Shown piece after piece: positions 11,880 to 36,451 of a DNA stretch of 64,000 bases. Source of the DNA: Tieghemostelium lacteum (Eukaryota > Evosea > Eumycetozoa > Dictyosteliales > Raperosteliaceae); the NCBI GenBank assembly GCA_001606155.1, contig LODT01000028.1, positions 1,278,735-1,342,734 on the forward strand. The letters are read 5' to 3'. Position 1 is the first letter of the stretch; each line of letters opens with the position of its first letter. Below the pieces are notes generated by a model. The model worked only from the letters and a program-made list of their open reading frames with translations, ran no database searches and was not told where the DNA came from. Position numbers and translations under genes: made by a program.

Positions 11880-12100
11880 GTCGCTGTTGCCTTAATTGAT
11901 TTCTGAATGCATTGATCAGATTTCAATATTCTGGTTCGTAGCAGATTTAGTTGATTACCAAAACAAATTTTCTTATCTTGATAAAGAACTGCACCCATAC
12001 CTTTCATTGAAGCGTCCGTATGTAATTCAAATGGTTTACTAGGATCTGGTAATTTTAGAGAACAATGATTAATAATATCATCAATTATACTAAATCAGGT
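11880..12100 (-). mobile_element. Ty3/gypsy-type retrotransposon fossil (RT/RNase H junction)
   Basis: The minus strand encodes a segment typical of the start of the RNase H domain of Ty3/gypsy Pol, with PDPSKPFELHTDAS followed by GAVLYQ. It is a short isolated piece of about 220 bp, without LTRs or other Pol parts nearby, so it is an old broken remnant. Its conserved motif is still easy to read, suggesting moderate age. Confidence 0.65.
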
Positions 12101-12123
12101 CTATCGAAACTAGAATAACACAA

Positions 12124-12212
12124 ATAAAGTAAAGATAATTAAGTTGTAGTTAACAGTTTGTAATTAAAATTCATCATACCAACTAACTACAACTTAATTA
12201 TCTTTACTTTAT
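12124..12212. repeat. Perfect 29-bp inverted repeat (hairpin), 31-nt loop
   Basis: Arm 12124-12152 (starting ATAAAGTAAAGATAATTAAG) is exactly the reverse complement of arm 12184-12212. The 31-nt spacer is unpaired. It lies just beyond the Ty3-type fossil and upstream-side of no gene start. It could be a foldback transposon scar, a small-RNA precursor or a recent inverted duplication. Confidence 0.85.
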
Positions 12213-12491
12213 AAATGTAATTCTTATATATATATCAATCCCTTTCTTATCTCTTACAAATCAATTCATCTATTGCAGTTTTCAGATGACACAGGTCCTA
12301 AATAATATAGGCTTTACTATTTAAACTTCACACTTAAAATAACAATTATGTAAATAAACAGCCTTTACACATCCCTACTCCTACTTATATAATGGAAAAG
12401 GTATATTATTTATGTATATATTATATTATATTTATTTTAGAAGTTTAAATAGTTGTTTGTGTGGAAATATAAAAAGATATTGATGATGTTT

Positions 12492-15400
12492 TTACATATC
12501 AAAAAATGATTTCTTATTGTTATTTTGAGTTGCAGCAGAGAAGCTATTTGAATTATTATTATTTGATTCCTCATCAGAATCAGTGTCCATTAAAGAGTTA
12601 CTTGGTTGATTGGCAAAGCTAAATACATGAGCTTTGGTCTTTCCATTTTGTCCACCAGAGTTGATTGAGTATTTATGTGAGGCTTCATCAACATGGTTTT
12701 CTTCATCAGAGTCATCGTAGAGTCCTGGGAATTTTGATGAGTTTTTGTATTCAGATTCATCAATTTCAAAGGTTGGTAACATCTTGTAACGTGCAACACC
12801 AGCTCTGAATCTCTGTCTAATGTACCATGCACCAAAACCTACAACTGCACCAGCAGCTAAAAGAGCTGCAATGACCTCAAGTGCAATGATGGCTGAGCTA
12901 CCAATCTTCTTACAATCCTTTCCACTGTATCCTGATGCACATTGACCACAATTTGGACCTTGGAAATTATCAGGACATTGACAAGTACCTGAGGTCTTGT
13001 CACATGATCCTTTACCACAACCACCTTGACATGAGAAATTTGGTGTGCAGTATGGGTAGTTTGTGTATCCATTAGCACAACGGTTGCAAGTGGTACCATT
13101 GTATTGTTGACCACAGAGACATTCAGTGGTTTGAGAAATTGGGTTGGTGTGACATGTACCTAGTGGAACACATCCTGGTGTATCAGGTTTACAGTTACAT
13201 GTATCAACTTGACAGAGATTAGTTACACATTCAGCAGCACCGTTTGGATTGTTGTTAATGAAACCTTGTTGACATTGGTCACATACTTGACCTTGGTAAC
13301 CTACAGCACATTGACATCCATATCCAACATATTGACCGTTACTTGAACATGAGGTATCAATCATGGAGTACAAATGGCTTTGTGGGAGAACTGCTGGAGC
13401 ACCTGAATCGTCAAATAAACCAGTCATTAACAATTGATAGGTTGTAGCTGGTGATAAAGTACTTTGGGCAAAGTTAATGTTCCATGTGGTGGCATCTTCA
13501 GAGGCGCATACAACACTAGATGGGGCTACAAAGGCATTGTTGAATTTGTTAATCAAAGAGAATGAGTTCATTACAGTAGCTGTATTCAAACATGCAACTG
13601 AATTATTGGCACTGTCATAGAGTGGTTCTGAGAATTGAATTTGGATGAGAAGGTCCATGTTAGGTGGCATGTAACTACCAGCAGCTGGGGATACCTGTCC
13701 TGCATATACAGTCTTGCTATCCATGATATTAAGTGTGTAAATGAATGGGAAACATAGGTCACTATAGACACTAGCTGTGAAGTAGTTTGTAGTCAAAGGT
13801 GGGTGAGTAATGGTAAGTGTGTAATTACCAGCTTTCAATCTACTAGAGGTAAGAGTTTGAGAGAGTGTTGTGATACCACTGTTGAGTGCAGTTGACCAAT
13901 CTCCAGTACCTATTACAGATCTAGTAACTTGTCCATTTGAGGCAACGTTTCTAGAGGAAATGGTAAGAATAAAGTTACTGGCAAGAGAATAGTAACTAAA
14001 TGTTGCATCAATTCTTGAACTGACTTTAGTTGTAAAGTCAATGTTATAGACAAATCCATTTTTAGAATCACTATTCTTTTGAATGTAGTCACCGCTAATG
14101 ATGGAGCTTACAAATTCAGTGTAACTATTGTAGGCATCTGGAACTACCCAATGAGAAGGTAACTGAGAATTGACAACACTTGGACATGCCAACTCCTTGT
14201 TGAGATAGGACAATGGTTTCATGAGAATTTGCATGGTAAATGCTGGACATGCACCTTTAGCCATTTGAGTAAATGTCATATCAATATAGTATGAAAGTGG
14301 AGGTGGAATTGGATTATGTGGAGACTTTGGTATGAAAGGACCATCTAAAATAAACAAGTAAGTCTTTTCATTACCTTGGTGAAGTGAGCTGGAATAGGAT
14401 GTTGCTTGTTCAGTATTTCCAATTGACTGGTAGATATCATAGTCAAGATTAGTTGAGATGTACTCTGTTGTGAAAATATTAATAAGAGTAGGTTCACTGA
14501 CTGCAAGGGAAATGTTAGATGCTAAACTAGTTGGAACTAAGAAATCGTTACTATAGAGATTCAATGTACCACTACCATCAATTGGACCACCGACGGTTGA
14601 TGTTGCATTCAACATATTCAAATCCCATGGAATTAGAGTGAAAAGACTGCAATCAACATGGTCATCGTCTGAAGCATCTCTAAAGATCATTGCTAGACGG
14701 TATGGAGTGCAATGTGCAGTGTAACTCTGTGGGAATCCACCAATACTGGTAATGACAAGATTATAGCTACCAGGTTGCAAAATGGCGTTAATTTCATTAA
14801 GATTACGATTGTGTTTACCTTGAATTTCAAAGTTCTTTGATGAGATTTTAACATCGACATCCAAGAACAAGAATTGGTAACCTAATTGAATAAATACCAA
14901 TGTAGGGATTTCAATAGTGAATGGAATGGTTTGAATGATTCTATCAGTTGCCATATCTCCATTTGAAATGGTTTCAATGTTATTGTAGAAGAAGTAACCA
15001 TCTGGTGATATAGTTATACTAGTTTGAGTTGTGGAACAGTTGGCTGGATATACAGCATTGAGAGCTGCGATTTCTTTCTCAACTTGTTTACTGTCTTCTA
15101 TGATAAGTTCAATATCGACTGCAGTGTTGGTGAATGTAGTTAGACCAGATTGAACACCGAAATTGTAGGTATTGGGGTTAGTGAGAATACCCATAATGGA
15201 TCCAAAGGAATTCATTGAACCTGCAGTACCAGTCTTAGGGTTAAGTGTCAATAGTGGGCTGTAAACAGTTTGATAGACTTCAGTTTCATCAGCTGGTAGA
15301 ACATCAGCATGAACTCTGATAAAGGTAGGTTCAAATAGAGTGAAATTCAAAGTGTTGTGTACAGGATTTCCAGTGAACATCCAGTACTCACCTTGTAGAT

Positions 15401-18400
15401 GAGTCATACCATTATACTGTAAATAAGCATAGGTATCCAAAGTTCTTGGTAGATAGTGATAGAAATCCTCTTCTTGATCCATAGCTGAAAATGGTTGAAT
15501 ATACAATTCAAAATTAAAGAATGAACATCCCATAATCTGATCTAATGTTGAATATGGCTCATAGATGAACAAGTTATATTGACCTGCTGGTAAAGACTGA
15601 ATATCCAACATATTTCTATTTGGTCTGTTTTGTCCATAATATGTCTTCTTTTTATCTGCAGATTGAATCTTTACAGCCAATTCACCAGAAAGGAAATCGT
15701 AACCAACTTGAGCGTGGACACTTGAAGTTGTAGTTATAGTAAATGGCATGGTATGGCTCTTTAATCCACTTCCTGCATTCATTTGTTGGAAGTACAATAT
15801 AGCACCTAGATCTAAACTGTTGTATGTGTACATGTTGTTACTAAGTGTTTTGGGTAAGTCAGGAGGCCAGAAATCAGCACCATTTGGACATAGAGGTGTT
15901 TGACTGACTTGTACAGGACCGATAGCAATTTCCATATTGAAATTGGAACATGTTGGAATGTTCTTTGACCATTTCCAGAATTGTACTTGAAGAGTGTAGT
16001 TCTTTCCACCTTGAAGGAGGGTAATGAAGGCTTCTTCAGTACCGATACCATTGGAACCTGAGATTACAGTACTGTTATTGATAGGATCAATGAGTTTGAT
16101 ATCAATATCGACAACATGTGGACTAACATAAACACGAAGTACAGATTGATTAACAGCTTGTAATGGGATGTTGGCATGGGTAAAGGAACCTTGTGGTACG
16201 ACAAAGTTATCAGACTCATAATGCATAGTTCCTTCAGTTCCCAAGAATCTAATACCATTGAGTGATGTTGGAATAGGTTCACCTGAACATTGTGGGACTT
16301 TACTCAAACCCAATAGAGTGAATTCCAATTCAAATGGCATACAAGGTAGTTGGTTACCAGTGATGAATGCAGAGGCTCTTTCAATCTTTAGTTGGTAATT
16401 GGCAGGATCTAAATTGGATTCAATGTAGTTGTAGTTGTAATCGTGAGTTCCACTAATGAAAGGTACAGATGGGTAGGATCCATTCTGTTGTTTGTACAAA
16501 TTAACTCTTAGATCATTTCTAAGGAATTCACTGGCAATGGCAGAGTAGAAGTAAACAACTTGAGTAAGGGTAAAAGAGTACTGAGCTACCAATGGATTGT
16601 TATCTGGGAAATGGTAGTATACAGGTTTGGGTACAGTACCATTTTCAAAGGAGAATGGAACATGTGATCCTGAGAGATTAGGTAGAACGTCTTTACCATT
16701 GGAAGGGCATGAAATACCTGCTGGGAACACTGGAAGGTTGGTAATAGGTTCAATGGCGATCTCCAAGTTCATCATTGGACAGAAGTTCTTACTGCTGCTT
16801 ATATAGTTACTAGAGAGTGCAAGTAAGAACTTTCCAGGTGCAATCTTGGTGTATATAATACCATTACCATTCAGTGTTGCATTGGTTAGTGTATTGATAA
16901 ATGTTACTGTTACATTACCAAAATCCTGTTCGGCTACAACCCTAATGAGAGAGATAGTAGTCAATGAGAATGATATGGTATAGTGACTGGAATCAATAAG
17001 ATACTGATCTTGAATATGTAAATAACCATTATTGATAAACTCTGGATTATTTAGTGTCTTTGGTAGAATATCAGCATCACAGTTAAAGTAGTCTTCTTGG
17101 TCAAAGATAAATGTTAGATTAGCTTCAAATGTGTATAGAATACATGATAGATTGACTTGTAAGAATTCAGGGGCATAGATGAATAGAGTGTAGTTTCCAG
17201 GTTGTAAAGTGGCATGTAATGCATTTCTGTTCATTTCATTGTCACCATAGATACATCCACTGATTGCTGTGATATCTGATCCTTTGCATTTTGGTGATCC
17301 AAATCCTGATTGTAAGACTAAAGATACATCACCAATGAGGAACTGGTATCCAAGTACAGCATCCAACATAGCAACTTGTCCATCCATTGTAGTTGCAATG
17401 GTGAAAGATGTGTTCCAGATATATGCATTTTGGTTGGTATTAGCAACGGTTGCGGAGAATGGGCTAGCACCAGGAAGGAAGTAAGAAGTACTTTCATTAA
17501 AGACAGCTGGTGTACCATCTGGATTTGCAGGAGCGAATTGAGGTGCGCTATCTTGCATTCCACATTTCTTTAGCCATGTAGCAGCGTCATAGTCAATTTG
17601 GTCAACGGTATCAACTGCAAGTTCCATGTTAAAGGTCTCACAATCTACAGTGTAGGTCTTGTCCCAGAGATAGTATTTGAACATTAAAATGTATTGACCA
17701 GGTTGTAAGAGATCCAAAAGGATTTCTTCATGTCCAAAGGTTAGAGATTTATCAACTAGATCATTAATAGAACCATCAGGATTAGCAGTGTAAAGCCATA
17801 GATCGACATCAACATGGTGTGGTTCAGTGTAGACTCTTAGGACACTTGTGGTGTTGAGTGAAAACATCATGTTATGACTACCAGATACCAAGTCGAGGTA
17901 ATAGTCATCTTGTAAATGTACACGACCTGAAGTACCGAGGAATTCAATACTATTTAAATTAGTTGGAAGAATTGGAGCTATACATAGAGTACCTTCGTCA
18001 TCAGATTGAATCTGACAATTTGGATAACCAACATAACCATAATCACATTGTCCACACATGTTAGTTTGAGTTGCACTTGCGTAACCTTGGTTACATTGAC
18101 ATTCAGGATACCCATCATCGTCATTACATTTACCATTTCCATTACAACTATTTGCAGTACAATTAGTGTTTTGTACACATTTGGTACCGGCACCGTGATA
18201 TCCAACTTGACATTTACTACAATCTGAACCAGTCCAAGGATCATCACAAATACATTTCATGGGTGAAGTAGTACCTGATGAACTTACACACTGACCATTT
18301 CCAGAACAGTCACAATCATACATTCTATAGATATGTGGATAGGTGCTGTTTTCGTCTTGGAAGAGGATTCCAGATGAAGTCTGGAAATCACCAGCATCTA

Positions 18401-21400
18401 CAACGAGAATATAGTCCATACTGACATTAAACTGTCCACTGAATGTCAATTGAATAGTAGTTTTATCTGATTTCTTTATAGAGGCTTGTGTTGGTGGGAT
18501 TTGAAGTCCGATAGCTTGAGGTGATTTCATGTAAATTGAATTCTGGGCAATAATGTACTGTAACAAAGTCTGAGTTGTACTGTTAAATGATAACTGATCA
18601 CTAAATAATACCTTCAAATTGAGTGGTTGGTATGGATCAAGTTCATAACCAGAGGCTGGATTTACAGATACGACTCTAGGTGCAGCACCTGAGACTTGAG
18701 ATTGAGCAGTAGTTGTAAAACTGAAATAGTGACATGCGTTGCTGATATTAAAACTGTTTTCAGTCATATCTTCAGTGATATCCAAATAGTAGACACCTGG
18801 AAGTGATACATTATACTGAATGATATTTTGATAGTTTACATCCGAATCTATATTTGATGGAATAGAATCCTTACCCAATGCAACTTGACTGGTAGTACCA
18901 TCACTATTCTTTCTGGAGAGTACCAAATTAAAGTCATTAGTTACAAAATCAAAACCAATGGTTGAATAGAGAATAGTTGGTGCAGGGACTTCCAATGTCA
19001 TACGATATCTAAATACACCCTGTTGAAGGTTATTGTTGATTCTCGAGGCTGTAAATAGATAGTTATCAGAACCAAAGGTATAGTCTTGACCATAAGGTAA
19101 GACAACAGTCTCTGGAGGTACTTGTTGAACTTCATTAGGTAAAACAGCAGGACACAATAAAGCATTTCTGACATTATCAGAAGTCTCAATGGCAAAGTCC
19201 AAATGGAAGTAGTTGCAATTAACCTTCTTGTTGATGGTAAGGTACTTGATTTCAAGGATATATGGTGTGGCACCTTGTGGTTGTAATGGCCATACTGCAG
19301 ATTCAACATTACCTTGACCCCAAGCAGAAAGTATTGGGGTGGTAGAAGATGAGTTTTGGTAGATATTAAATGCAATATCATTACCAGGGTCAGCTTCAGA
19401 CAAGAATCTTAACATTACTGATCTGGAAGGTACTTTAAATGGAATTCTGTTGATTGTAGATGTCTTATCAATGAAAAAGTGTGGGAAGGTTAGACGAATT
19501 TCACCTTTACTGTTCTGAGGTCCACCATAGGCATCAGAGCCACCAGTGGATGAGTACAAATCAGTTGGAAGTGTAAATGCATCGTCACAAATTGGAATGT
19601 TATTGGGGGTTGTAGTGTTGAGGTAGTAGGTAAGAGTGTATTGTGCACATTCAAGATTAGTTAGAGGTGATGTACCTTGGTATGGGTCATAGACATTCAA
19701 TGTCCAGTTACCAGCTGGAAGAATCTCATTTAAGAAACCTTGACCACCTTGGTACAATGGCCAGTAGGTCTTGGTAATAGACTTTCCATTAATCATAATA
19801 GTACCATTCAATTTCATTGCCATTGAAGCTACCAAATCATTGTAAAATAGACCAATTTGAATGTGACCTGTTTGTGTGATTTGGAAGGCCATTTGTTGGG
19901 GAATTGGTTTGATATCTAGTTCTCTGGAGAAGGTTTGACTGAATTTAGTGTTACCTACAAGAGATGAAGGCAAAGTAGCTTGATCAGCACATTCAGTGGT
20001 TATAAAGGTATTGTTACCTAGAGTTGTGTAAGGAGAGATACTAATGAATGCAGGGAATGCAGTGCAGTCTTCAACCTTTGGTAAAGGACCTCCGAATGCA
20101 TAGTAATTGAATTTCAATACATAACTACCAGCATTCAAAGTGTGATAGATAATCTCTTCGGTTGTGGTACGTGATGATGCAATAGTCTTACCACCTTGTG
20201 ATGGTGCGAATGCCAAGTTTACATCGATATCTAGTGATGGATGAACTGGAATATATACACGAATGAGTGATGGTGCAACGAGAGTGAATGCAACAACATC
20301 AAATCCAGTTTGAACATCTGCCAAAACAGTCTCTTGGAAATAGACAGACTGAGCTGTAAATGGTGATAGATAGCTTACTGTGGATAGTGTATTTGGGAAT
20401 ACATCATTCTGACATACAATAGTATCTTGATTTACTTGAGTGTCATCTAATAACTGTAAGGCAACTTCTAATGTAAAATCAACACAATTCTTGAGAGCAA
20501 ATTGATTGGATTTGGTGGCAAAAGGTTCGTAGATGACTAGGTTGTAGTCTCCAGGTGCCAATTCAATAGCTTGAATTTCAGCATTATTATAACCAAGTTC
20601 ACCAAAAGATAGAGTCTTACCTTGTGAGGATTTAAGTTGAATCTCTAAATCATTCCAAACAAAGTCATAGGTAATGATAGCTCTGAACATTGCAGGAAGT
20701 GCACTGGCACCACTGTTTACAGTGAATGGTAGTGATAATGAGAATTTAGTGCTATTCTGGACGAATCGATATTGAGCGATACTGTAGAATGGTTGATCGG
20801 TAGTGGCATTGGCGATGAGATTGGTGGAAGGAAGTTGATTGGTGCAGGTGTCTTGTGGGTTCTGGTCTAGGGGTGAGATGGCCAGTTCAAAGTTATAGGT
20901 ATAACAGTTCTTGTAGGGTACACCTGTGAGTGGCCAATGGAAGAACTTGAGGTTCATTCTATAGGTGTTAGCGGCATTCAACATGTACTCTAAAGCCTCT
21001 TCACCTCCAAACTGATTGGACCATGCAACTAGCTTATTGTTTTCGTAGAGATGTACATCGACATCGATATCCGATGGTTGAACATAGGCACGGAAGAAAC
21101 TGTTGACTGCTACAGTGAATGGATGATCAGTGCTAGCAGAGATGACTTTAATAGGAGGAATAAGGAATTGACCAGCAATGTGAACTTGGTTACTTGTACC
21201 TAGATACCCTGGTGAATTCAAGTTCTGTGGGAACTGAACATTATCCCAACATGGTGCATCTGTAGTGTCATCTTGTAACATCATTTGTGCAGAGAATGTA
21301 AATAGGAAACATGGTGGGAGACTAGGTGGTTTTGAAGTTAAACCTGTAACGATGGATAGTGTATAGTTTCCAGGGAACAATACAGCATAGATATGTTGAG

Positions 21401-23264
21401 TATTTCTTGAATGTGTTCCACTGTAGACTATAGGATCTTGATCATCATCGTCATCGCTAGGTATATTGGTTAGAATAGCTCTTACATCTCCTAGAACAAA
21501 GTTACTGTCCAAGTCACTGGTAAAGAGGTAAGTCTGATTGATGCTAAATGACACTGAAGTTATAGTCTGTTGAGTTTGTGCATTCTGGAACATAAATTGG
21601 AATGTTTGATTAGAAGAAGCAAATTGATAGGCTTGATTGGCATTCAACTGATCAGTGATATCTTGTAGATTTGGAACTTGATTAGTTGTGATATTCTGGC
21701 AGTAATTGACCATAGTGTAGTTACTCTGTGGAATGATACCAATCTCCAGAGGGAAAGTGTCACAAAAGATATCGGCATTCTTTCCAAAATAGAATAGAGT
21801 AAAGTTGTATACACCAGATGGGATCAGTGCAGTAACCTCTTCTTCTCCACCCCACTTAAAAGATGCAACGATGGTGTGTTGTGAATTGGTAAGTTGCAAA
21901 TCAACATCCACACGAGTCTCTGGGATATATGCTCTAAAGTATGAAGTTTCGTTGATTGTAAATGTGACGGTATCAGTACCAGTTACAAGATCTAAAAAGA
22001 CATCTTCGGCATAGTACAGGTATCCTTGATCGTCTAGTAGTCCTGGAGCATTGAAAGTCAATGGCAACATATCTGCTTCACAATTCAAGAAGGTTTCAGT
22101 CTCATGAGCAGACTCCAAATTGACAAACAATGAAAATGGTGTGCAATTAGGTTGTACAGTGAAATCTTTTTCAGAGACTATATCATAGATCCATAAAATA
22201 TAGGTACCAGGTGTCAAAACAGTTCGGATGGTGGAATGACCCTTACGTTCATGTACACCAATAGTACAATTTCCAGAATAGATACAGGCAAATGAAGTCT
22301 GGTCTACAGGTGGTGCTACGGACTGATCTTGAATGAGTAGACCCAATGACCCTCCAGTGAGGAAATGTGTACCCAGGGTAATCTCAACACCCCATTTATC
22401 AGTTGTAATCAAACCAGATGGTAAAACGATCTGATAACTCTGTAGAAATAGTGTACCTGGTGCATTTGGTGCTGGTTTTTGGTCTTGAATATTCATAACT
22501 GTACCTGTCTCATTGATATCAGAATCATAATAAAAAGTTGCAGCTTGAAGTGTAGCTAATGCTCCTAAATTTGGATAAGTTGGTGTATTTGGGCATTGAA
22601 CATTTGCAATTCTATTTACAATGGATTGCTATGTTGTTTTTAAAAATAGAAATTTAGATATTTAAAAAAGAGTGTGTGGTTTGTGTGTTAGTGGGTGTGT
22701 TTGATAAAGTTTGGTTGTGGTTGGTTTTTTTTTTTTTAAAGTGTGAGTACATACAGTTGGTATGATGGAAGCTTCTAAAGTCAATGTTGGACAATCCAAT
22801 TGAGAGGCTTTATTTTGACCAAAAAATAGTAATCTAACTTTATAACTACCAGGACCTGGTAAGTCATAAAAGATGGTTTCATCCATTCCTTTGGTAGAGT
22901 CAGATGTGTGAACTAGAGCTTTAGATGATTGAACATCATATAGCCATACATCTACATCGACTACAGATGGTGCTACATAGAATCTGAATGCAGATGGCAC
23001 TGTGACATTGAAATATATATCTTTGGTAAACTGTTTAAATTCATAATAGAATGTATTGAGGAAATGAAATTCCTGATTGAATCCTAAATAATTGATTCCA
23101 TTAAAATCGCTAGGCAATGGTTGATAAGGACAATCGGCATCAGATGTTATCGAATTCTGTGCCTTACTAACTTGTGATCCAAATATTAACAACCACCATA
23201 AAAATATACCTAAATATAAATATGAAGGCAACAAACTATAATTGTTGTTGTTGTTGTTTATCAT
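12492..23264 (-). CDS. Giant type I membrane protein: repeated A/B modules, two Ig-like and EGF-like clusters
   Basis: Exons 23264-22755 and 22628-12492 give 3548 residues. A signal peptide (hydrophobic stretch near residues 13-35) starts the protein. The ectodomain alternates two module types of about 130-160 residues: A (RVY..PH.VDVDL.L, then GGEE, then a C..F..E(I/L)AI end) and B (GY.FL.GDL, then L.PGNY.L.IYEP). Five A/B pairs, an Ig-like segment (VSVNPASGYEL) and an EGF-like cluster end near residue 1713. Then the same order repeats to about 3412. One membrane span (about 3413-3440) precedes an acidic, Asn/Ser-rich tail of about 105 residues. The modules resemble PPC-type beta sandwiches, by eye only. 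A cell-surface adhesion or matrix role is inference. I do not recognise a named orthologue. The intron (22629-22754) is CA-rich on the sense strand. Confidence 0.88.
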
Positions 23265-24206: not shown

Positions 24207-27200
24207 ATGACAGAAAGAAGATCTAGGGAAATTCTCTATAGAGAATTTTATCGGAGAGCTTACGTCAGAGGTTTATGTTTACATTGTAACACAACATTCC
24301 CTGGTTGTCAATGTACAGAATCATTGACAAAGTCTTGGATTGCATCCTATGATGATGAAGAACTTCAAATGACTATTGAAATATTTAATGAATGGTGTTT
24401 ATTATCTATAGAGGATAGACTAAAATTAGCATCTCAATATAACATTAAATTTAAAGGTGTTGCAATGGACATTGAATCTAGAGTACAATCTACAGACCAA
24501 AATAATAATAAAGTTCATAGTAGTAGTGGTGGTAGTAGTAGCGATGATAGTGATGATGACGATTCAAAACCAAAGCGTAAAGTTGTAAATCAAAAGGAGC
24601 TTTTAAAATCCTATTTTCCAGATTTTATAATTATATTTATTAGATTGTATATTCTCACTAATCCTTTGTTGTTTAAAGGTAAATTTTATTTTGGAGTATG
24701 AAGTAGGGTTGGGAGAATAATTCTAATAGTTTTGATTTATGTGAATATTATATAGTTTATGAAGAATGGTATGATGCTAAAGATGCAGTTCAAAGGGGTG
24801 TATGTTATGTTGTATTATGTCATAGAAGAACATTGGATGCTTATGATAGAGTATTCATTAAATGTCTGAATGATTTGGAACTATTTGATTTTATTAAAAA
24901 GAAGTTTTTGATTTCTGATTTTACATTTCGACCACCATCTCCAGAGGCTTTTGTTAATGTACGTTTAAACACACACCCACCACCATTTTGTACAATATCT
25001 AATTGAATTATTATAATATCACACAGGTTTTAACACAGTTTGCAGATAGTGGAAAGAATTATCATCCCTTTTTAAACCAGTTACATAAACATTATCCAAC
25101 TAAAGAGTTTGTCATTGAATTAGACCTTATCAATAGGTTAATAGGTAATATTGAAATTGATGAGTTCTTTTTCAAGCTTATATTACATCATTGCAGTGAA
25201 TCAGTATTAGAATCACAAATATTATCATTCGAACAATATAAACCAATTGTATTTTTCTTATTTGGAACTGTATGTATACATTTTGGATGAAATAAGGTAA
25301 ATCATAAACTTATACATTTTAAATAATATTGTAGTATTTCACAACAAAATATGTAGAAACTATAAAACGAATTTATAAAAGATTTCCAAAAGAGTTTATG
25401 GATCTTATTGGTGTCTATATAAACTCTTTTGATTCTATAATGGATGGAGATACCATTATCTACATGATGAGTTTTCTCTATGACCATTTGAAACTTCATC
25501 CAAATTTATTAATTAAACCTAAAGAGTATGTATAAGACTATAGTTTTATATAAGTTCTTGAAATGTATATACTAACATTAATGTTGGTAAAGTTTAACTA
25601 GATTTATATTAAAAAGTATTGAAAAATCAACATCATGGGAAGCTTATTCATTGATTGAGTATTTGGACAATACTGAATCACATTTTCATACAATTGTCCA
25701 AAGTTTCCCTCACAATTCATTTTGGTATTTTGGACTATACAAAGTATTTCAAAATCTTTCAAAGGAGTTTGTTAAAAATAATGTAACTATTTTATTATAA
25801 ATTATAAATATCTAATTATAATAATTATTAATTTTTTAATAACTATCTATAGTGTCCATTAGAATTATTTGAAAAATATTTGATAACAAAGACTAATGTA
25901 TATACATGTACAGTATTTTTGAAACATTATGACGTTCATCATCCAGTGCTTTTAAATTGCTTACCTAATTTTAAATATACACGTGAAATTACACATGATC
26001 ACTTGGAATTGAATGCAAAGTTATTGGAGAGGATACTGATATTACCATTCCCAGATGTACATGCCAAACTATTTTATGATCTATTTGATGCATCTAGAGT
26101 AGGAAGAGATACATTTACAATACAATTCCTGAAAGATAATCTGTTGGCTGCATTTAAATTGATGGAAACACACAGTCAGGAAATTGAACGACCTTTACAA
26201 AAACTATTTGATAATGAAGATCTATGTAAAGAACTATTTAAAGAAAAGTCTGAAGCTACAGATTACTTTGTAAAGAATAGTTTGGGAGAGAAACTAAGAC
26301 TTAGGGGCACATGTTACTTGATATCGTTTGGGAAGTTCCAGAATTTGAATTTACAAAAAGTGAGGGCATTAGCAGAGCACAATAGGGTTAATAAAGTGGA
26401 TTTGTTAAAATCAATGGATGTGGGGTTCTATCAGTTTGGTGTGGATGCTCAGTTGGCTATATACAATTCCATGGGTACACAAGGGTTTTTAAAGGAGATT
26501 ATGGAGATGTATCCTGAGAACTTTGAAGGATTGGTACCTGTTGGACTTGTACCTAGAGGTGTATATGAAATGGCAGAACTTCTACTACATTTAATTGCAC
26601 TCAGACCAACATTGGTTAATATAAATACTGTTAATTTTATCAACAGGTTCTATAGACCAGATGGTAATCTTAAACTCAATTTATATGAAAATCGCTATAT
26701 TAAAGAGGTTAGTGAATTAAATGTGTTAAATTCATTCATATCTCTTCACCCTTATTGTGTGAAATCCAAGTTATTCTGTCAATGGTACTATGGTCTAAAC
26801 TCAAAAATCAAGAAAAGAATAGTACAGAATGATGCAACTTTTAAGTTAGGTAAAATGGAAGAAGATTATAAAACTATAGAATTAGGTATTGTTGATAGTA
26901 CATATATAGTACCACTTCATAACCCCACCATTCCAGTACTTCCAAATATAATCTATAGACAGATTATACATCTACTCTATGACGACAAATCACTTCACTA
27001 CCTACACAAAATCATTTTATCTCAAGTCTCTTGGCTATTCTTTGACCTGTGTTCTAAAATACTTTCAAGTAGTTGTATAGAGGCTATATGGTTCTCAACT
27101 TGCATTGAAGTTAAAAACTTTGAAAGAATAAATATTCACTCAAAATACTCACTTTGGAGAAACTATCCCGTTTCCTTGTCACTCTACGACCTTGTAAAGA

Positions 27201-28075
27201 TACCTGCTGATCACTTGGATGAAACTGTTAGAAATCTAGAAGGTTTGAATATTAAAGGTATTCAATTTCTAAGTAACCAATTTCGTCTTCCAATTCGTGG
27301 TGAGACTAAACTCAGAGGTCTATTTATCAATATAAACAATGGACTTTCACTCAACCAGGTCATTGACATTTTCAAAAATTCACCTCAGTTAGAGAAAGTT
27401 GGCTTCTACGCTCAAGATTACTGGGAAGATTATGAAAAGGTTCTAGAGACTTTAGTAGCACTAAAATTACCAAACCTAAAATTTCTAGGTATAATTCAAG
27501 TTGCAAACATTAAACATAACCTTGGGTACCATTTCACACCCATGATACAGAGACTGCAATCTGAACCATACAATATCAAAGAAATGCCCAAAATTGGTGC
27601 ATTTTTAGCAAATTATGTAACACCTCAGTTTAGTGGTATTGAAAATATCTATTTGTCATTTACAGCATCTCAATTTATATCTGAGCTACCATTGGTTTTG
27701 ACACATCAGTCATTGGACAGAGGACAAGTTTTGAGATTTAATGTAATGACAATTGCTGATATTATACCAATTCTCAAACATTTGAATACACTGAAACCAA
27801 CGTTACGTGTGTTGTCATTTCGTATTGTAAAGTTAATACCACCAAATCAAGTTATAAAATTATCAATAGTTCAAGAGATATTTGATCTTGTAGATCAACA
27901 ACACATTAAACTTGATAAATTTGTACTCTATCATGCACTAGACTCAGTTTATCGATTCCCAATTTACTATGATGAAAATCATGATTTATGGTCTCATATC
28001 AAAATTAAATCTTTTCCAACCAATGAAAATGATATAATATTTAAAAGAATACCTCCTCTTCAAACTAATAAATGA
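24207..28075 (+). CDS. Six-exon paralogue 1: Cys-cluster N-terminus, F-box-like and LRR-like C-terminus
   Basis: Exons 24207-24678, 24756-24958, 25027-25269, 25335-25525, 25593-25782 and 25853-28075 give 1173 residues. I do not recognise a named family. Visible parts are EILYREFYRRAY followed by Cys at 24, 27, 34 and 36 (a possible zinc site), a Ser/Asp-rich linker in exon 1, long helical middle exons, an F-box-like stretch near 794-836 (LPNIIYRQIIHLL, then LSQVSWLFFDL) and a leucine-rich C-terminus with repeated LPNLKFLGI-type strands. The gene at 32788 has the same exon count, the same intron phases (1,0,0,2,0) and matching motifs, so these are duplicates. A role as substrate receptor in a ubiquitin ligase would follow if the F-box is real; that is inference. 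Confidence 0.8.
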
Positions 28076-32787: not shown

Positions 32788-35700
32788 ATGAAGAGCAAAG
32801 AGATTCTGTATATAGAGTTTTATAGAAGAGTTTATTTCTTTCATTTGACTTTAGAGAGCTGTATGTTTTGTGGAAGATATGATCAATATGAATGTTATTG
32901 CTCTAATCAAGAACGGTCAGTTACTCAGTGGTTAAATACATATAATATAAAAGAGTTATGGTTTATTTTTGATATCTTTAATGAATGGTGTCAATGTAAT
33001 AAACAACAGAGAAGAGAGTTAATTGATAGATACAATATAGACTATCCTGGTTTTAGAGAAGATATGATTAGATTTGTAGATGAAGAGAATTTTGATAATA
33101 TTGAAGAAAATGAAGTGCAGGATAAAGACTCTCAAATTGATATCATTTTAATACCAGATATCATTTTAACATTGTTTAGAAACTATATTCTTCAAAATCC
33201 TTTGAACTATCAATGTAAATATCTTCTACTTCATTTTATATAAATTTCAACTACTAAATTTAACCAAACTCCCTAGATTATTATGGTTGGTTTGATTCAG
33301 ATAATAATGTACAAAGATTATTCTCTTATTGGGTAATGTGTCAAACTAAAGATGGATCAGATAAAGTGTTTTCCAGGATTCCTAAAGATTGGGAATTATT
33401 TGAACAATTACAAATCTATGGCTGTAATGAGTTTTCAGTTCAAACAAATACTTTCTCAAAGGTATATATATAAAGTATTAATATTATAAATTTTGAAAAT
33501 TAGATATTAATCATGTAATATACTTTATCAACAGGTTTTGGAAGAACTAATAAATTCACATCAAGAGGAAGCTATTGACTTTGTATTGAAATATACACCT
33601 GCTGATGCCATATTCAGTATTCCACTTACACTAAAGATTAAATATAAGTTAAAAAATTCAATATTTCAAAACCTTTGTTCTGAAACAACTCTTCAAAATT
33701 CTTCTTTTGATGATTATAAAGAATTGACATTATATCTATTTAAAGTATGTTTCTTTATTTATATTCTAAAAATGAAAAACTATTAATAGTCCAATTCTAT
33801 TTTAGAGATTTGAATTTAATTTTTATAAAAATTTAGAATTGGTAGATAATATTTCAAATAGATTTAAAACAGAATTTATTAAATTCCTATCCGAATATAT
33901 AACATCAACTTTAACTTCCTTTGAATCTTTTGAGTTTAATAACACTATGGATGTTCATATCATTTTGTACCTAAACCAAAGATTTTCTATTAATCCAATG
34001 AGTTTAATTGATTCTAAACAGTAAGTGTATCTTTTCTACTATTTACCACAAATTTAAAATGTTCTAACATCTCTTTAGTTTAAATAGATTCATATTATCA
34101 GCAATCCAAACTAAACCTAATTTTTATTTCCTATTATTAGTGGAATTCTTAGATGGTAATACTATTACTTCTGAATTCTCAGAGATTATCAATTTGTTCA
34201 CAAAGAGTAATGATCCAACATGTTACTGTAGATATTTACTTTTCACTAAAATATCAAAAGAATTTGCATTCACTAAAGTATGTGTTATTTCTATTTTCTA
34301 TTTATTATTTAAATGTCATTCCTAATACCTAAAGTCTAGATTGAAACTGATATATTTATAGAAATTATGAAATGTAAATTCAATATATTCAGTGTTGCTA
34401 TATTCTTGCAGTATTTTGATGTCAATAATAATCAATTTCAAACTTTTTTCCCAAAGTTTGAAATGGTTGATTATATTCAATACATGAGAAAAGACATTTC
34501 ATTAATACAAAACTTGTTTACACAAATGTTGGGTCAAGATAGAACAATCTCTGTAATGTTATATTGTGAAATGTGTAAAATATGCGTACCCTCTAGAGAT
34601 ACTGAAGAATTACAGTTTCTAAAAGACAATGTTCAGATATTGAAAGAGGTTCTCAGATGTCAACCTGGAATCACTGATATGGTATCAACAATCTTTTGCA
34701 ATTCTCAACTCTGTAAAATTCTATTTTCAACTGAAACACAATCTGGAAATGAAATTGGAACATTTCTAGCTCAAAAAGTGTTCTATAACCACTCTAAAAC
34801 ATGGAACCCTGAATACCTATTATTTTTAGGTAAGTTTCATAATATGGATAAAACCAAAATGAGATTAATCCTTCTATGTGAAATTCCTCTGGCTTTGGAT
34901 TTGCTTTATAGTGTGGGAGATGATGGAATATCCTATATTATAAATAATAGCTTCCAAAAGGTTTATATAGAATTTTTGGATTCATTATTTTCAAAATATG
35001 CTGAAGATGGTAGTGGTCCACCACCTGATCTTCCAAAGACATATTATCAATACGCAGAGTTATTGTTACGTAGTTCGTTGGACTTCCTAAAGAGACCAGT
35101 TATATTTTCAAATGATCTCTATAGTGGTTTATTTTTAAATAATGCAGATTTGGCTTACAAATTTGAAAAGTTCATCAGTCTCTATCCATTTTGTTATAAG
35201 TCAAAATTATTTATGGAATGGTACAATTCAATTCCAATTCTCATAAAATCAAGTTTCAAACAAACATACATTACCTATAAACTTGATTCTATATTACAAA
35301 GAGATTTCTCAGATAAAATGGATTTAGATACCAAAAACTGGGTATTTTCAAATTATATCTACCAAAAGATATTAACATTTTCATTTTTGGATAAAACTCT
35401 CCATTCCATACACAAGTTTAATTTATCAAAAGTATCTAAATTGTTTTTGGTAATTTCCAAAAGAATTTTGTCCTATTATTCTAAAATTGGTCTAAACTTG
35501 AAAAATGAATTTGGTATAACTCAGAGTTTGCTATGGTCACTTGGAAAGAATTACTCACAGTCTCAATCCATTTATAATTTGGCTCAGTCTATTTATCCAA
35601 TTGAGAAATGGGAAGATTTCATTGAAAATCTGGATAAATTGGATCTTTCTAAAATGTCTACACAATATTGTGGACCACTTTTAAAGATACCATTGAATGT

Positions 35701-36451
35701 AAAGACTATAAAGATTTTATATACACCACTTCCGTATTTACTTTCATTGGCTGAGAATTGTCCAAATCTAGAAGTCATTAGCTTATACATCAGGTTTGAT
35801 GTAGATGGGATTTCAGACTATTTAAAGAATTTTTATAAATCATTATCATTACTTCATCATCCAAAATTGAAGAATATTGAAATCAAAATGAGCCTACAAA
35901 GTGATAAAAACCTTCAATTTGAAGATACAATTAGAGAATTGAAATCTCAGCCATTTAATGTACAGAGATTGCCATGTATTTCTGTATCTGTTGGAATAAG
36001 CAATTGGATATTCAGTGGTATTGATTGTATTGAAGTATCAATGACAGCGATATCCAGGTTATCATATGTAGAGAGTCATTTGGATAAATGTATAACTACA
36101 GCATCACTTGAAAATACCAGTGATTTAAGATTAAAAATTCCTGATGCCACTCAAGTTTTTCAAACTATTGATTATCTACAAAATCAAGTAACATTCACCA
36201 AACCTTTGGAGAGATTATCTCTGCACATTGAGAATATTATATCACCGAATGAAATATTCCCAGAGGAACAATTGCAACAGATTTTTGATAAATTAGATTC
36301 ATTAAAATTACCAATCAAAGAACTCTATCTTTTCTATGCTGTCAATATCAATTATAAAATTCCAATGAACTTTCACCAAATGGACACCTGGTCACAAATA
36401 TCATTACACAAATACAAAACAAACAATTACTATCATTTTATAAGAGAATAA
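32788..36451 (+). CDS. Six-exon paralogue 2: Cys-cluster N-terminus, F-box-like and LRR-like C-terminus
   Basis: Exons 32788-33214, 33277-33461, 33535-33744, 33806-34020, 34079-34277 and 34340-36451 give 1115 residues. Start at the ATG at 32788 matches the start of paralogue 1; the frame is open upstream but without ATG. Shared landmarks are EILYIEFYRRVY, Cys at 25, 28, 36 and 38, FNEWC, the NPLNY exon end, an NRFIL block opening exon 5, an F-box-like stretch near 745-790 (YIYQKILTF, then LSKVSKLFL) and a leucine-rich C-terminus. It lacks the Ser/Asp-rich linker of its partner. Protein identity between the two looks low while intron positions are the same, so the duplication is old. Function unknown. 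Confidence 0.8.

Follow-up and report, generated by a model that had tools for sequence, protein, structure and literature searches.

A giant single-pass surface protein with two matching halves in the amoeba Tieghemostelium lacteum

This report describes a single gene of the dictyostelid Tieghemostelium lacteum and the giant membrane protein that it encodes. The window, by which we mean the whole analysed stretch of 64,000 nucleotides, lies on contig LODT01000028.1 (positions 1,278,735 to 1,342,734) of an assembly of 23.3 Mb in 43 contigs (GCA_001606155.1). The gene occupies positions 12492-23264 on the minus strand, and its product of 3,548 amino acids consists of two halves with the same order of parts, most likely derived from one old duplication.

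The gene and the architecture of its product

The gene model is established. Two open frames, of 200 and 3,334 residues when counted from the first start codon, were joined into one gene by a splice search. The sole other in-frame joining found (intron 22562-22750) would delete the first cysteine of module B1. The parts are as follows.

22755-23264, minus strand: exon 1, with the signal peptide and module A1 (splice search, hydropathy, and 82 bits for A1 with a leave-one-out hidden Markov model)
Residues ~1-36: signal peptide, judged by eye and by a hydrophobic stretch at residue 11
Residues 43-170: module A1, in exon 1
22629-22754, minus strand: intron of 126 nt, phase 0, GTATGT...TAG, within the A1/B1 linker
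12492-22628, minus strand: exon 2, from B1 through the stop codon, 3,378 residues
18684-23138, minus strand: module block of half 1, A1 to B5, five A-B pairs, with the intron inside the span (leave-one-out models)
18315-18683, minus strand: immunoglobulin (Ig)-like segment I1, weakly Big_5-like
17991-18314, minus strand: epidermal growth factor (EGF)-like cluster E1, 16 cysteines
13725-17990, minus strand: module block of half 2, A6 to B10, five A-B pairs (leave-one-out models)
13350-13724, minus strand: Ig-like segment I2
12903-13349, minus strand: EGF cluster E2, laminin type, 24 cysteines
12813-12899, minus strand: single transmembrane helix (hydropathy)
12495-12812, minus strand: tail of 106 amino acids, probably cytoplasmic (pattern scan)

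From its amino terminus the protein thus reads signal peptide, A1-B1 to A5-B5, I1, E1, A6-B6 to A10-B10, I2, E2, one hydrophobic helix, and the tail. A preliminary description of this DNA, made from the letters alone, had already proposed two halves that each run through five A/B pairs, an Ig-like segment, and an EGF cluster. This architecture is now established, as leave-one-out models recovered all twenty modules above 200 shuffles each and assigned every one to its own class. The A and B modules are homologous, as a comparison of the two profiles by hhalign shows (E 4e-8, probability 94.9).

Nearly all modules (19 of the 20) carry a cysteine near the start and another some 100 to 150 residues on, a count that allows the module border to shift by one residue where needed, and B1 and B6 share an extra cysteine pair in a loop. 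A9 (15045-15470) has no cysteine at all. In the pattern scan, a DxD-type motif turned up in most A modules, with A7, A9, and A10 as exceptions. The modules of half 2 may have undergone decay or specialization.

The remaining segments are recognized to different degrees. I1 matches Big_5 (PF13205) with 18.2 bits (E 0.0044), below the cut-off of 23.6 bits, and I2 gave no match to this family. E1 exceeds the cut-offs of EGF_Teneurin (27.2 bits) and EGF_2 (22.5 bits) and stays below that of EGF_laminin (18.3 bits), whereas E2 reaches 54.9 bits against EGF_laminin (PF00053), well above its 21-bit cut-off. A structure model of I2 and E2, computed from a two-row alignment, attained a predicted local distance difference test (pLDDT) score of only 42.1. 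Residues 3417-3435 are the most hydrophobic 19-residue stretch of the protein, and a pattern scan counted 47 N-glycosylation sequons.

The gene is also rich in guanine plus cytosine relative to the rest of the window: the five 2-kb steps of 12001-22000 have a content of 0.356-0.391, and the other 27 steps 0.256-0.358.

A probable single duplication and its alternatives

The preliminary description explained the two halves by one duplication of a 1.7-kilo-residue ancestor, after the modules had already multiplied. The register of the halves and the ranking of pair orders speak for this explanation, and the module tree does not. In BLASTP of half 1 against half 2, the top match keeps the register (206 bits, E 4e-57), as does a second one that runs from B4 to the EGF clusters (84 bits); out of register, no match scores above 129 bits. 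Out of the 120 possible pair orders, the equal-position order ranks first in all four scoring schemes. When A and B were permuted apart, 7, 22, and 7 of 14,400 orders scored as well with the three matrices, counts in which the observed order itself is contained. Module spacing agrees strongly between the halves for two of the four anchor sets, namely tyrosine and cysteine. Taken on the sequence comparisons, a preference for equal positions is evident.

We therefore consider one old duplication the most likely origin of the two halves. An ancestral block of about 1,700 residues, which begins just past the signal peptide and takes in everything through the EGF cluster, would have been duplicated once, with the five A-B pairs already in place, after which the halves would have diverged to their present identity of about 24%. 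That this was one single event, and when it took place, we infer. As a joint account, a single-pass surface protein of PPC-like modules (discussed below), duplicated once over some 1,700 residues after the five pairs had arisen and acting as a multivalent adhesive or recognition stalk, seems to us the best explanation and a reasonably probable one.

Several results weigh against it. Position B4/B9 scores negatively in all four schemes (interaction -2.3 to -3.7). The other two anchor sets are weak (192 and 144 of 2,880), and the LP/F anchors even fit a register shifted by one pair slightly better (9.1 versus 9.4). For insertions and deletions, 8 to 36 of the 120 pair orders are equally good across four alignments. 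Above all, the module trees did not recover the equal-position pairs. In the trees calculated under the LG model, support is below 70 for all groups except A2+A4 and A7+A9 (86 each, A tree) and P7+P9 (79, pair tree), and the two groups of A modules unite members of the same half, contrary to equal positions. The modules concerned are as follows.

21699-22079: A2
19995-20417: A4
16713-17084: A7
15045-15470: A9

Approximately unbiased (AU) tests were run on A, B, and A+B and repeated on core columns under LG and WAG. The values for the equal-position and half-wise constraints were 0.08 and 0.21 for A, 0.36 and 0.28 for B, and 0.35 and 0.59 for A+B, all inside the 95% set, and the core columns retain both constraints under either model. 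Because the trees and AU tests favor neither grouping to the exclusion of the other, the pairing of A1 with A6, B1 with B6, and so on that the preliminary description had predicted did not emerge. Its converse, by which neighbors within a half would be closer than equal positions, was not borne out either.

Quartets of modules give a similarly divided picture. For A+B, the two alignments yielded 5/3/2 and 3/5/2 quartets for the equal-position, half-wise, and crossed topologies, with equal positions ahead of half-wise in summed log-likelihood by 5.8 and 3.3. A alone leans half-wise (-5.2 in both alignments), and B alone leans to equal positions (11.4 and 5.5). In the quartet of positions 2 and 4, the half-wise topology is best, for A by 6.9 and 5.9 log-likelihood units and for A+B by 4.8 and 1.9. 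Exchange between modules inside a half is a possible source of this grouping.

Such exchange leads to the stronger of two alternatives, in which the single duplication was followed by gene conversion between modules within a half, thus blurring the tree. It would reconcile a register and spacing that favor equal positions with positions 2 and 4 that nevertheless group inside each half. On the other hand, the only DNA 14-mers common to both halves are two overlapping ones, and exchange of DNA within a half remains putative. We see gene conversion as a tentative addition that is worth keeping in mind, though short of probable.

Clearly less likely, in our view, is that the common ancestor of the halves was short, one or two A-B pairs plus the Ig-EGF part, and that each half reached five pairs separately, their equal-position likeness reflecting similar selection on a twofold molecule. 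The two well-supported groups of the A tree fit such separate growth, and so does the better log-likelihood of half-wise trees for A (-3171.5 versus -3180.6) and A+B (-6814.5 versus -6818.9), although the half-wise constraint is also the looser one. Against it stand the first rank of the equal-position order, the few permuted orders that match it, the tyrosine and cysteine spacing, the presence of five pairs in each half, and the B modules, which are likelier under equal positions (-3623.1 versus -3625.0).

Predicted fold and the search for relatives

The fold of the modules was approached with a structure model of one pair.

15471-16292, minus strand: pair A8-B8, used for the structure model

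The AlphaFold2 model has a mean pLDDT of 83.5 and a predicted template modeling score of 0.81, and its best fold matches are bacterial pre-peptidase C-terminal (PPC) or collagen-binding domains. As modeled, the A-B pair resembles these domains in its PPC-like beta-sandwich fold. Membership of the PPC family (PF04151) by score is a different matter, as no module reached the cut-off of 25.9 bits: A1 gave the best value (15.3 bits, scan of exon 1), followed by A6 (15.0 bits). At E<=1, two of the ten A modules and none of the ten B modules matched PF04151, and a search of the source genome with this family returned no match at the same threshold.

Some observations weaken the likeness. In Foldseek, the match of 5iku to the whole pair has a root-mean-square deviation of 16.6 and a template modeling (TM) score of 0.28, the VIA alignment of 5iku covers A only, and the A profile found no match among PDB sequences at E<=1. 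PDB sequence searches with exon 2 and with a profile of I and E likewise gave nothing at E<=0.01. Fold matches to viral proteins had query TM scores of 0.15-0.32 among the matches listed. Lone weak Pfam names on B modules (PB2, WD40, Orbivirus VP3, polysaccharide lyase, and others) were dismissed.

In short, the protein shares with the PPC and bacterial collagen-binding domains (PF04151; ColG s3a-s3b, 5iku) a predicted beta-sandwich, the best fold matches, and sub-threshold Pfam matches in A1 and A6. It differs in being a membrane protein of a eukaryote with twenty copies, in scoring under 25.9 bits, and in the cysteines near both ends of 19 of the 20 modules. A eukaryotic membrane protein with twenty PPC-like modules, all below the threshold of the standard models, is a less usual arrangement; a search of one open library of papers for PPC domains in Dictyostelium found nothing. 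It is conceivable, if rather doubtful, that a polymer-binding domain of this kind, typical of secreted bacterial proteases, was transferred into an amoebozoan ancestor, where doubling to A-B, growth to five pairs, and block duplication turned it into a giant adhesion or matrix receptor missed by standard domain models.

No second copy or half-size relative was found in the source genome with the exon 2 part of half 1, half 2, A6, and I1 as queries, a search in which only the best candidates were scored, so that distant copies could escape. Apart from the gene itself, these searches returned a TIG-EGF protein, matched once in its EGF part (C33, E 1.5e-4; L012), and three weak hits with E values of 0.03, 0.05, and 0.8. 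The latter were rejected as copies, as the A and B profiles scored no better than E 0.29 and 0.053 on their regions. Against the 243 open reading frames (ORFs) of the window, both profiles found the gene at 12492-23264; the other matches, five for A (E 0.071-0.87) and four for B (0.36-0.97), were taken as chance. A tblastn search with A6-B10 in phages and plasmids returned no match. B1-E1 gave no pattern match in viral contigs and nine in genome contigs, none of which was confirmed, and no NCBIfam family was matched.

Possible function and wider setting

Giant surface proteins that contain super-repeats are known. The protein at 12492-23264 crosses the membrane once and combines an extended ectodomain, made of binding-type modules, with EGF segments and the sequons. 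These features fit a long, multivalent adhesin or a receptor for recognition, which is its most likely role. The ectodomain would string together twenty PPC-like beta-sandwich modules as ten A-B pairs, with one Ig-like and EGF segment breaking the series and another closing it. The binding partner of the modules may be a polymer outside the cell, the matrix, or another cell, with the EGF segments serving as spacers, and the short tail could connect the chain to sorting or endocytosis.

The tail carries YKML about ten residues beyond the helix, plus two acidic Ser-Asp-Glu clusters. Motifs of both types are known in sorting receptors, so an endocytic or sorting receptor instead of an adhesin can be read from them. 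Short motifs do arise by chance, and we hold this alternative to be rather unlikely. Between the two roles, we infer a larger share for adhesion or recognition than for sorting.

Known adhesion proteins offer partial parallels. Dictyostelid TIG-EGF proteins, such as those of the TgrB/C kind (TgrB1/C1 are named as adhesion proteins in a passage of PMC4931340), also combine extracellular beta-sandwich modules with EGF. Theirs are TIG domains, whereas neither exon of the giant protein matches IPT/TIG at E<=1. The same genome encodes a TIG-EGF protein at L012 49-1743 (TIG 44.2 bits, EGF_2 29.5 bits, over cut-off). The integrin-beta-like Sib proteins are likewise large, lie at the cell surface, and contain EGF-like and Ig-like parts, but the giant protein has no vWA or SIB domain match; a Sib-type protein lies at L025 4127-7000 of this genome (vWA_SIBA-E 181.4 bits, SIBA-E_N 86.1 bits). 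With laminin-type EGF proteins it shares the EGF_laminin match of E2, although EGF makes up a minor part of its chain and none of the other laminin domains gave a match.

According to PMC4931340, the proteins that are both essential for development and unique to Dictyostelia are mostly extracellularly exposed and secreted. A giant surface protein of sub-cut-off modules suggests that such proteins are not yet fully catalogued. The duplications nested in it (of domain, pair, and five-pair block) would form a datable series once orthologs are added. As reported in PMC13046832, CRISPR knock-ins have been made in five species other than D. discoideum.

Two further observations concern the genome and the window. 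The Dicty_CTDC repeat has 112 matches in the source genome, which together with the Sib protein makes a dictyostelid source sound; the repeat by itself would not suffice for this, as PMC4931340 lists it for a fourth genome, PhyP, as well. In the window, the ORFs at 25880-28075 (731 amino acids) and 34367-36451 (694 amino acids) have no Pfam match above cut-off and are paralogs of each other (BLASTP 179 bits, 26% identity), forming a local family without an assigned domain.
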